Source: Streptomyces sp. 6-11-2 (lineage in GTDB: Bacteria; Actinomycetota; Actinomycetes; Streptomycetales; Streptomycetaceae). From it: DNA of 31,263 nucleotides. Where the stretch lies: contig NZ_BJOR01000003.1 in assembly GCF_006540305.1 (NCBI RefSeq), forward strand, positions 1 to 31,263, given 5' to 3'. A model generated the notes under the pieces. It did no database searches and had not been told where the DNA came from. It saw only the letters and a program-made list of their open reading frames with translations. Below are positions 1-31,263 of the stretch, piece after piece. How positions within the stretch are numbered: position 1 is the first letter of the stretch; each line of letters opens with the position of its first letter. The translations under genes and the position numbers were made by a program.

Positions 1-192
1 TCCGTCGTTCAGACCGAGCGTGGGGGCCGACTCGGGGACGGTCGCCATGAACGGGTAGTGCTCGGTGGAGTTCGATCCGTTGACGATGGCTGAGGCGCTG
101 CCGGCCATGACAGTGGCGCATGCCGCAGCTGCGAGAACGCCGACGGCAGCGGTGCGGGCGGTACGGCGGCGCAGTGGCTTGAAGCTGTACAC
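1..192 (-). CDS. Trypsin-like (S1) secreted serine protease, N-terminal part
   Basis: This is the first 64 codons of a secreted chymotrypsin-fold protease. The GTG start at 192 is supported by AAGGAA eight bases upstream. A twin-Arg-like basic stretch (LRRRTAR) is followed by an Ala-rich hydrophobic segment and an ASA cleavage site at residue 35. The mature protein then begins directly with IVNG at residues 36-39, the free N terminus expected of an active S1 protease, so no propeptide is visible. The gene leaves the window at base 1 on a complete codon. Its natural continuation is the minus-strand protease body at the other window end (31263-30472), which begins at the equivalent place in the fold and in the same frame. 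If the molecule is circular the two are one gene of 328 codons. A duplicated 5' region lies upstream. Confidence 0.85.
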   Translation of the reverse strand, partial: MYSFKPLRRRTARTAAVGVLAAAACATVMAGSASAIVNGSNSTEHYPFMATVPESAPTLGLNDG

Positions 193-495
193 AAAGAGTT
201 CCTTTTTTGCTCGGTGGATCCGTACGCATTTGCTCGGTGGATCCGTGCGCATTCAGCCTCGTTGTTTCGACGCCTGCCAGACCATCCGGGAAACAGGCCA
301 GTCGATGGTATGGCCCTCTTCCCCTCCGAACTGGGGAAAACCCGAGGCCCGGAGTGTGGCTGCCCGGCATGACGGCGACGGCGGTCACCGCGGCCACGAC
401 CGCGACTATCACGAACTCCCGCCGTCGCCACAACACGCGGAAATACCTCGCAAGGGCGGCCGGAGAAGACCCCCGGAGGAAGCCACGGATCTGAG
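178..495. repeat. Copy A of a dispersed direct repeat (protease 5' region)
   Basis: The sequence from the first protease codons outward is repeated, in the same orientation, near 4245-4470. Shared blocks include ATGGTATGGCCCTCTTCCCC, CCAGACCATCCGGGAAACAG, CCCGGAGTGTGGCTGCC and GGAGAAGACCCCCGGAG. Copy B lacks about 70 bases that copy A has around 375-445. The repeat carries the protease promoter, 5' UTR and ribosome-binding site. No gene is visible in it; the interval 193-583 holds only this repeat. Confidence 0.85.
208..253. repeat. Two tandem 23-bp units in the protease 5' UTR
   Basis: Positions 208-230 and 231-253 are the same 23-base unit (core CTCGGTGGATCCGT, ending GCATT) with one mismatch (A/G). 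It lies just upstream of the protease ribosome-binding site. The second repeat copy near 4279-4303 has only one unit, so the duplication arose after the two copies separated, or was lost from copy B. Confidence 0.85.
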
Positions 496-673
496 AGCCA
501 AGACGCAGACGTACGTGCTACGCGTTGATGGCGCTATTTGAAAATCCCGACCCGGTGCTGGGGAGTGGGGCAAACCTGCTGAGTTGATTTCCCCACCCTT
601 CGTGCGATCTCGGCGTGGTGGGTGCGACGGCAAGCCTGCGTGGGCAACGGGTCGGGCCTCTTCGGGAGGCTGG

Positions 674-1590
674 GTGCTCACGTGGGAGGAAGACGTGGAC
701 GCGCACGCGCTGCGTCGCCAGGGCTGGACGATCTCCGCGATCGCCAGACACCTGGGACGCGACCGTAAGACGATCCGTGCCTACCTGAACGGCGAGCGCG
801 CCCCGCGGCAGCGCCGCCAGGCTCCAGATACGTTCTTTCCCTTCTTGGACTACTGCCGTCAACGCCTGGCGGACGACCCGCACTTGTGGGCATCCACCCT
901 GTTCGACGAGGTGGTCCAACTCGGCTACCGCGGCGCCTATTCGACGTTCACCGGGGCGCTTCGCCGCTACGAGGTCCGGCCGTACTGCGAGCCCTGCCAT
1001 GCGTCGCAGGGCCGGGACCGCGCGGTGATCGAGCACCCGCCGGGCGAGGAGGTCCAGTTCGACTGGGTCGAGCTGCCCGATCCACCCGCGGGCTGGGGCA
1101 TCGGCGGACACGCGCACCTGCTGGTCGGGGCGCTCGCGCATTCGGGCCGGTGGCGGGCGGTGCTGGCGGAGTCGGAGGACTTCCCGCACCTGGTCTAGGT
1201 CCTCGACCAGGTGCTGCGCAAGCTCGGCGGCACCGCCAGACGGTGGCGGTTCGACCGGATGGCGACCGTCTGTTACCCCTCCAGTGGCCAGGTCACCCCG
1301 ACGTTCGCGGGGGTCGCGAAGCTCTACGGCGTCCAGGTGGCGATCTGCCCGCCGCGGGGGGAAAAACCGCAAGGGCGGCCTGCACATCGCCACGGCGGGG
1401 AAGGCCGTCGTCGCCCGGCACCGGCTCGCGCCGCGCGGGGCCAGGCGGACGGTCCGCGACGCGGGTCATGTGATTGCGCTGGAGCGGGCGGTTCTCGCGC
1501 AGGTCAGTGACCGGGCCCCGTGCAAGACCAAGACCCGCCGCCCGCTGTCGCCCCAGGCGCTCGCTGAGGCTGAGCTGCCGGTCAGGCCAC
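674..1590 (+). pseudogene. istA: IS21-family transposase (IstA), broken
   Basis: The reading frame from GTG 674 encodes an IstA N terminus: a helix-turn-helix (WTISAIARHLGRDRKTIRAY) and the start of the DDE catalytic core (EEVQFDWVELPDP). It is interrupted by TAG at 1196-1198, resumes in the same frame (FDRMATVCYPSSGQVTP, YGVQVAICPP), then shifts frame near 1365. Beyond the shift the text is the IstA C-terminal region (VVARHRLAP, VIALERAVLAQ, CKTKTRRPLSP), so roughly 150 residues including the third catalytic acid are missing. No IstB ATPase gene follows. The element is dead. GGGAGG at 664-669 is the likely ribosome-binding site. A stop, a frameshift and an internal deletion together indicate old decay. 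Confidence 0.85.
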
Positions 1591-1920
1591 ACGCCGGTAC
1601 CAGGCCCGGACCCGCTTGGTCTCTTCGCCGGAACGGAACTGCGGGCGCCAGTGCCCCCACTGGGCAGCCTGAGTCACGTCGCCTCCGATAACTGCGCGGC
1701 CGACACGGCCAGTTCGTGCATGCGCTCCTCCAAGCGGCAGAGGGACGGGGCAGTAGATCACCCTAGGGCCCTGAAAATCGAACGTGGCGCTCCGCGGCCT
1801 CTTCCGCCGGCGGACCTGACCGGGAAAGCCGAAAGGGCCCTCGGGCAAGCCTCCCCGAACGAGGGCTTGCCCAGCCGTCCTGTGAGCGCGAACAGCCCGA
1901 CCGCGGCGAAGGAGGAACGG

Positions 1921-30123: not shown

Positions 30124-30188
30124 CGGCGTCGTCCCGTCCCCTCGTTCCGTGTCTCCTGCGGCTGTCCCGCCGTACTCCCAGCGTGCAC

Positions 30189-30464
30189 CAGTCCGGCGGT
30201 CAGCCGGTGATCAGCATCGATGCCAAGAAGAAGGAACAGCTGGGGCAGCTGCCGAACCCCGGGCGGCAATGGCGCCCCGCCGGCGACGGCGATCCGGTAC
30301 GGGTGGAGGACCACAGCTTCTACTTCATCGGCCCCGACGTCGACGTGGCGATACCCTTCGGCATCTACGATCCGGCCCACGACAGCGGCTGGGTGAACGT
30401 CGGCACCGATCACGACACCTCCGTGTTCGCCGTCGAGTCGATCCGCCGCTGTTGGGCTGCGGCG
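30189..30464 (+). pseudogene. ISAzo13-family transposase fragment
   Basis: GQPVISIDAKKKEQLGQLPN, RQWRPAGDGDPVRVEDHSFY, VDVAIPFGIYDPAHDSGWVN and VGTDHDTSVFAVESIRRCW are the conserved middle of ISAzo13 transposases, including the first catalytic Asp. The fragment stops eight bases before the protease stop codon, and its 5' part is missing. Confidence 0.85.
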
Positions 30465-30471
30465 GTTTCGC

Positions 30472-31263
30472 TTAGGCGGCGCGGCGGGTCTTGCGGCGGC
30501 GTACTGCGACGGCGGTGCCGGCACCGGCGACGACCAGCGCGGCGGCCATACCGGCGATTGCGGCGGTGTTGTCGTTCGTACCGGTCTCGGCGAGGTCGGA
30601 GCCCGTGGCCGCAGTCTTTAGGGCGTGGTGGTTCTTCGGGGCGTGGTTGGTCTTCATGGTCTTGTTGATCCAGTCCGCGTAGGCGTGCGCGTTGGTGTAG
30701 AGGCCAGGGCCCTCCGAGCACGGCACCTTCGGGGCACCGGGCCCGGAGGTGACGCCGATCAGTTCCCAGCGGCCGTTCCGGCCCTTTTGGACCTGCGGCC
30801 CGCCGGAGTCCCCGAAGCACGCCATGGCCTTGGGCACGGTGGTGATGGTGCACAGCCGGGTCGGGCCCGCGTAGCCCGGCGCGCACTCGGACACAGCGCC
30901 CCTGCGGGTGTTCAGCTCCTGCAGCCGGTCCGGGAACTTGAGCTCGGTGTCGACGGTGGTGCCGAAGCCCAGGAGCCGGGTCGGCGTGCCGGGTCCCCCG
31001 ACATGCTCGGCGATCTTGATGGGCTGCTGGGCGACCGGGCGGTCCAGGCGTATCAGCGCGAGGTCGTTGTTGTTGGCGGCCTTGCCCTCGCCGTTCACAT
31101 AGCCGGGGTGGACGAAGATCCGGTCGATCTTCCGGACGGTGCCGCCGGACTTGCGGTGCTCGCTGCCGACGCGCACGATGCCGTCCAGCTCGAGGCCGTC
31201 ACCCTTCACGCAGTGGGCCGCCGTCAGTACCCACTGCTGATCGATCAGCGACGCCCCGCAGGT
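30472..31263 (-). CDS. Trypsin-like (S1) serine protease body with LAETG sorting tail
   Basis: The gene enters at the window end and continues the protease begun at 192 if the molecule is circular. Numbered on the joined protein, the catalytic triad is His81 (VLTAAHC), Asp131 (NNNDLALIRL) and Ser217 (ACFGDSGGP). Six visible cysteines include pairs usual for S1 proteases. After the catalytic domain a His/Lys-rich linker leads to LAETG (288-292), a hydrophobic segment and RRRKTRRAA. This is a cell-wall sorting signal of the LAXTG kind used by class E sortases of Streptomyces, so the protease should be attached to peptidoglycan. No sortase gene is in the window. The stop (TAA, 30472) directly abuts an ISAzo13 remnant. 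Confidence 0.93.
   Translation of the reverse strand, partial: TCGASLIDQQWVLTAAHCVKGDGLELDGIVRVGSEHRKSGGTVRKIDRIFVHPGYVNGEGKAANNNDLALIRLDRPVAQQPIKIAEHVGGPGTPTRLLGFGTTVDTELKFPDRLQELNTRRGAVSECAPGYAGPTRLCTITTVPKAMACFGDSGGPQVQKGRNGRWELIGVTSGPGAPKVPCSEGPGLYTNAHAYADWINKTMKTNHAPKNHHALKTAATGSDLAETGTNDNTAAIAGMAAALVVAGAGTAVAVRRRKTRRAA

Follow-up and report, generated by a model that had tools for sequence, protein, structure and literature searches.

The window analysed here is the whole of contig NZ_BJOR01000003.1 of Streptomyces sp. 6-11-2 (C3, positions 1-31263), one of the three contigs of an assembly of 8,725,642 bases (8.73 Mb); the other two, C1 and C2, have 7,981,630 and 712,749 bases, and the three add up to that total. 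Since the window is a complete contig, ends that can be joined make a statement about the molecule or about its assembly. The two ends of C3 split a gene for a secreted S1 protease, which we compared with a paralog on C2 and with the corresponding locus of Streptomyces sp. CB01373 (scaffold25, locus L044). The pieces of the gene and of its surroundings are as follows.

1-192, minus strand: the first 64 codons of the secreted S1 protease, with signal peptide and IVNG; the contig start interrupts the gene here; start codon and motif picked by eye.
30472-31263, minus strand: C-terminal 263 codons and stop codon of the same protease, with TAAHC, NNDLAL and GDSGGP and a hydrophobic, basic C-terminal tail; motifs read by eye.
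30622-31263, minus strand: stretch R, 642 bp, an exact match to C2 whose end is the contig end.
30445-30621, minus strand: 3′ tail of the protease, defined by alignment, with shortened C-terminal repeats; the 3′ flank of the C2 and CB01373 genes is not present beyond 30445.
1-368, no strand assigned: protease 5′ part with its upstream region, CB01373-like, with 7 shared-derived sites with the CB01373 locus against 1 with C2.
1-7221, no strand assigned: left block of C3, contiguous with the protease in CB01373 scaffold25 and 97% identical in the alignment.

The left-end frame on the minus strand runs from GTG at 192-190, with AAAGGAA upstream of it at 205-199, to base 1 and gives 64 whole codons ending in LGLNDG, and the right-end frame, read from 31263 to 30472, opens with TCGASLIDQQWVLTAAHC. 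When 31263 is joined to 1, an unbroken trypsin-family protease of 327 amino acids (64 + 263, from GTG 192) results. A preliminary description had taken both ends for one in-frame gene of 327 residues with no gap or overlap, the left end carrying 64 codons with signal peptide, IVNG and LGLNDG and the right end an S1 protease piece; re-reading of the same frames bears this out, with 263 codons and a stop on the right, and the C2 paralog and CB01373 are collinear across the join. On circularised C3 the frame is one open reading frame (ORF) with a GC content at third codon positions of 0.88, and the ORF call, which begins at an upstream ATG, gives 347 amino acids. Coverage of the 220-position Pfam Trypsin profile (PF00089) extends from 26-220 for the right piece alone to 2-220 for the joined protein, which scores 120.6 bits at a curated cut-off of 20.6 with the whole domain matched. 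The catalytic His, Asp and Ser are present in the right piece in TAAHC, NNDLAL and GDSGGP, which we take to be the catalytic-triad motifs of the S1 family. Among solved structures, the top row is kallikrein-7, aligned from residue 61, just ahead of the join at residues 64/65, and other rows span the join, for example plasma kallikrein from residue 32. Also, an upstream element occurs twice, at 173-489 and 4245-4465 (126 bp at 92% and some adjoining pieces), where its copies precede the protease and a secreted-protein ORF at 3621-4109, respectively; part of it lies ahead of the C2 protease and at two places in the CB01373 locus as well.

The complete paralog on C2 (612533-613820) is collinear with the joined ends of C3, with no base inserted or missing at the join and one mismatch there, at C3:1. 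Using the right-hand piece we found 29 loci, 27 of which run through the junction in a single blastn alignment, and the two most distant (L071 and L072) gave no blastn row at E 1e-20. Only the CB01373 locus aligns past the gene region, in one collinear block of 8,102 columns (8.1 kb, 96.7% identity) that leads from C3:30445 via 31263/1 to C3:7221, the point at which its scaffold ends; the identity is 97% over C3:1-7221 and 91% on the 3′ side of the protease. The 5′ half of the protease at the left end of C3 is thus continued by a protease 3′ half as contiguous DNA in a relative. A second CB01373 contig carries C3:7161-8741 (1.6 kb) at 97% and also ends there. Three CB01373 contigs (the start of L044 and the ends of L092 and L093) end within the same stretch of at most 131 bp, C3:7091-7221, which is the C-terminal end of an alcohol dehydrogenase gene, so that this stretch is probably a repeat in CB01373. 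The right part of C3, searched in 61 genomes, has matches in 60, mostly at two-component genes, which give no context for the junction.

Since both ends are parts of one gene and their junction is contiguous DNA in a sister species, at 96.7%, the circular molecule or tandem unit proposed in the preliminary description stands as the best reading, and we consider it likely, on sequence comparison, that C3 is a closed loop of 31,263 bp, either a free circle or the unit of a tandem array, which would show the same seamless ends. Closure in this strain is what we infer from these data.

To examine the place of the cut, we listed the exact matches of 50 bp or more that C3 has with four stretches of C1 and C2; these stretches contain all matches of C3 longer than 100 bp with an identity of 90% or more. 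The blastn row that contains R has 649 bp (C3:30615-31263 = C2:612829-613477) and is printed as 100%, and the exact match stops at the contig end, as C3 position 1, which follows it, has another base than C2. At this position CB01373 has the base of C3 and the 12 other loci compared have the base of C2; an error in the contig-end base was considered and is unlikely, the same base being present in CB01373. Five exact matches of at least 100 bp with the C1 and C2 stretches provide 10 ends, and a random cut would hit one of them with P of about 3e-4, on a 100-bp threshold that was set post hoc with the data already seen. The preliminary description needs a correction on this point, the place of the cut being better accounted for by the way in which an assembly graph is opened than by chance. 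Because the cut coincides with the end of a 642-bp perfect repeat common to C2, C3 appears to be a path through a k-mer assembly graph that was opened at the boundary of a node. No terminal overlap of the C3 ends was found at 10 to 399 bases, as is expected for a closed graph path. The published account of Unicycler (PMC5481147) describes how end overlaps are trimmed so that contigs lead directly into their neighbours, and how a circular replicon is rotated when dnaA or repA is found. In the present assembly dnaA is located on C1, at 3.49 Mb.

Three layouts are compatible with a shared R: (a) a circle beside C2; (b) C3 present once inside C2 between two copies of R; and (c) a tandem array, free or in C2. 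Layouts (a) and (c) both remain, since an assembler could collapse a tandem array in C2 into C2 plus a loop. For layout (b), the circle-or-tandem proposal has to be qualified, as the same graph also allows a single insert with a direct copy of the protease on either side, in the order C2 left, tail, R, C3, tail, R, C2 right, and with R collapsed by the assembler. Such an insert would produce an identical shared-R graph and would make replication genes unnecessary, and in CB01373 the left part of C3 adjoins a protease with a C2-like 3′ flank, which is the left copy that the insert predicts. This last point is weak, however, because the C2-like 3′ flank is common to the proteases of several other relatives (matches reaching C2:612479-612529). 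C2 near its protease is also mosaic, and among the matches listed for 392 genomes of the genus none extends from the protease into either flank; in these searches, made with the C2 protease flanks and with C3:7000-26900, one or two candidates were scored per genome at strict E limits, a design that cannot show absence. Against the single insert stand the longer repeats that were assembled uncut: C3 passes an exact repeat of 1,399 bp and another of 692 bp, and C2 passes twice through about 1.68 kb at 100%. As the same data resolved these longer repeats, the 642-bp R should not have stopped the assembly, and we regard the single insert as improbable. The two C2 copies of about 1.68 kb (C2:616256-617932 and C2:656469-658147, printed as 100% identical) were both assembled through and are probably an insertion sequence (IS).

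The two exact tracts shared with C1 lie in paralogous segments of C3.

18753-19444, plus strand: 692-bp exact match to C1 near 6743k, within the paralogous segment 18374-19836 (96%).
28754-30152, minus strand: 1,399-bp exact match to C1 near 2908k (sensor kinase gene), within the paralogous segment 27813-30186 (96%); C3 is uncut through the match.

The 100-base windows beside both tracts are 82-99% identical to C1, mostly 91-99%, save one with a 42-base gap, and this pattern suggests that C3 and the main contig have recently undergone gene conversion at the tracts. A molecule that recombines in the same cells should have such perfect tracts in common with the host genome, which argues that C3 is a resident of the strain rather than a contaminant. 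A chimera or a contaminant from a CB01373-like strain could be considered since C3:1-8741 is about 97% identical to CB01373, above the 93-94% between the CB01373 chromosome and C1 in the one 11-kb stretch compared. But C3 has 642, 692 and 1,399 bp free of differences with three separate loci of its own genome, while CB01373 is about 96% identical to C3 at the sensor kinase, and on comparing C3:6500-26400 with CB01373, identities of at least 97% are found only left of C3:8741, the other rows being 68-89% over at most 671 bases. Foreign origin is therefore very improbable.

The history of the protease copies was traced with shared-derived sites polarised with 12 outgroup loci; polarisation was not possible at 3 sites in R and 5 in the tail, and each of the other sites is changed in a single sequence. 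Of the 7 sites that C3:1-368 shares with CB01373, 3 (363, 366 and 368) lie at the edge of the homology, and those in the coding part are C3:1 and C3:72. In R all 4 shared-derived sites (4/4) are shared with C2 and none with CB01373. The affinity of the C3 protease thus switches at or near the junction, the change falling between C3:1 and C3:31159, a stretch of about 105 bp that starts at the junction; recombination or conversion within R is the simplest account of it. In the 3′ flank after 30445, C2 and CB01373 agree at 43/43 bases of the alignment block, and C3 is without that flank.

The best candidate for how the loop formed, and one that would fit these affinities, starts from a mosaic accessory region with a direct copy of the protease gene on either side. 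Homologous recombination between the copies, inside R, would form the C3 loop, which would receive the CB01373-like 5′ half of one copy and the shortened 3′ tail of the other, and the reciprocal single copy would stay on C2; the assembler would then have opened the loop exactly at the end of R. We put the origin by recombination between two direct protease copies at somewhat short of an even chance, and the maintenance of the loop would likewise have to be supposed.

Several observations weigh against a loop with this origin. R is present once on C3 and once on C2, and no parent locus carrying both direct copies was observed. The tail at 30445-30621 singles out neither copy as the ortholog of the CB01373 gene, with 2 sites shared by C2 and CB01373 and 1 by C3 and CB01373. 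The two CB01373 pieces that match the left part of C3 at 97% sit on different contigs, and the genes of the right part of C3 do not adjoin the protease in CB01373, where homology stops at C3:30445. A tandem array in C2 should leave reads that connect C2 with C3, whereas the sequence of C2 continues without a break through the protease it carries. Also, the 20-kb ends of C1 and C2 hold just four short matches to C3 (55-196 bp, 68-82%), and an array lying between contigs, which would be expected to leave C3 sequence at those ends, was set aside on that result. A free circle, finally, would be expected to have a replicon, and none was recognised in the ORFs scanned.

For this search we scanned 9 + 10 + 10 translations with Pfam and 56 ORFs, partly overlapping with these, with Pfam and NCBIfam, together a subset of the 163 ORFs of C3. 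No replication, partition, transfer or integrase family was found among them; neither a replication initiator, as an autonomous plasmid would have, nor the integrase and transfer genes of an integrative and conjugative element (ICE) or its actinomycete form (AICE) was present in the same set. The Pfam families recognised include the protease, SsgA, a GH18 chitinase, a WYL regulator, glyoxalase, alcohol dehydrogenase, Lyase_1, GntR, an ABC transporter operon, NUDIX, a hydrolase with TetR, DUF4260, a ROK regulator, SpoIIE, and a response regulator with sensor kinase. NCBIfam transposase matches are to IS21 (2 ORFs), ISAzo13 and IS701, the IS21 score shown being 85 bits at a cut-off of 160, and weaker matches are to a hybrid kinase, spore_II_E and FomD. 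Terminase_5 of Pfam matches the IS21-like ORF at 21.8 bits (cut-off 20.3), and this was taken as the helix-turn-helix of that ORF. There is no cluster of DnaA boxes on C3, only 3 widely spaced sites with one mismatch, and its GC skew has no single turning pair.

These results bear on a further explanation, in which C3 is an ordinary small circular plasmid whose replication system lies outside the family libraries and which acquired the protease and other segments from other replicons. Small circular plasmids are a known kind of molecule in Streptomyces, and C3 resembles them in its plasmid-size contig with closing ends, its accessory genes and its IS remnants, but differs in having no recognised replication, partition or transfer family in the scanned ORFs. 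The plasmid is also a loop and so overlaps with the loop formed from protease copies, from which it differs in origin and upkeep. Several C3 segments do occur on Streptomyces plasmids, a closed contig fits, and so do the exact tracts with C1 and C2, as those of a resident molecule recombining with the genome. The lack of rep, par, tra and integrase families in the scanned part of the ORFs speaks against it, as do the far-apart one-mismatch DnaA sites, and neither C3:1-25000 nor C3:25001-31263 is covered to 80% at a single place by any plasmid record, in a search from which records of the own or near genomes may be omitted. No phage match was obtained for C3:1-25000. We consider an ordinary plasmid rather unlikely.

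Among known systems, the loop from two protease copies comes nearest to the amplifiable units of DNA (AUD) in the chromosome arms of S. ambofaciens, which measure 14.2-32.8 kb and have boundary repeats of several hundred nucleotides that are >90% identical (PMC5869714). The same paper gives the model of Young and Cullum, in which a replication fork is trapped on a circular template made by recombination of direct repeats (PMC5869714). C3 is alike in its size (31.3 kb against the range in that account), in having a repeat several hundred bp long where the unit closes, here the exact 642-bp R that is also present once on C2, and in a loop or tandem array as the likely product. It differs in having no induced chromosome break and a protease gene as the repeat, in that no parent locus with a pair of direct repeats was observed, and in that C2, although it looks mosaic near the protease, is not proven to be a chromosome arm: no near-identical inverted repeats occur among the 20-kb contig ends, and dnaA lies on C1. 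C3 may therefore work like an AUD, as far as this can be read from the sequence, and is not classed as one. Compared with the protease loci of C2 and CB01373, C3 has the same S1 protease, with 642 bp identical to C2 and 7.2 kb upstream at 97% to CB01373, but its copy has a shortened C-terminal repeat region and is without the shared 3′ flank. On this comparison we tentatively propose a natural amplifiable-unit loop, a replicon-less circle or array of 31 kb formed from two secreted-protease gene copies with the reciprocal copy on the 713-kb C2, while holding it somewhat less probable than not.

If this is true, ordinary duplicated genes, and not dedicated elements, would close and open loops of accessory DNA in Streptomyces. 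The kind of event is already known as part of Streptomyces genome plasticity, and the value of C3 lies in its clean anatomy. Apart from origin, the contig is very likely a loop and not a random piece, and it shows that the cut of such a contig can coincide with the end of a perfect repeat common to another contig, so that the repeat becomes a candidate recombination site; such a coincidence suggests a check for further loop contigs. The amplifiable-unit process is known mainly from laboratory strains and mutants, and C3 would be a natural example of it if read depth shows amplification.

As to the other contigs, no near-identical inverted repeats were found among the 20-kb ends of C1 and C2, and the 216-300 bases searched from each of the four ends are without a second copy, apart from a 51-bp match at 78%. 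The end of C1 and the start of C2 share two diverged inverted matches of about 1.1 kb (67-70%). As these inverted matches are few and diverged, the linear ends of the assembly may be incomplete; C2 could be a chromosome arm or a plasmid.

Within C3, the ABC transporter operon at 12631-16512, which by our own reading of its substrate is of the spermidine/putrescine type, accounts for the largest plasmid coverage of C3:1-25000, through a 3.7-kb match to a Rhodococcus plasmid (79.5%), and has a match in one genome of the genus at 79% over 3.9 kb. The latter length is also that of the longest match (3.9 kb at 79%) outside the own genome among the matches listed for C3:7000-26900 in the 392 genomes. 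Remnants of an IS21-like transposase, an IS5 transposase and a plasmid-type recombinase/exonuclease stretch are seen at 571-1377, 27371-27555 and 8741-9213, respectively, and decayed genes are numerous for a 31-kb molecule.

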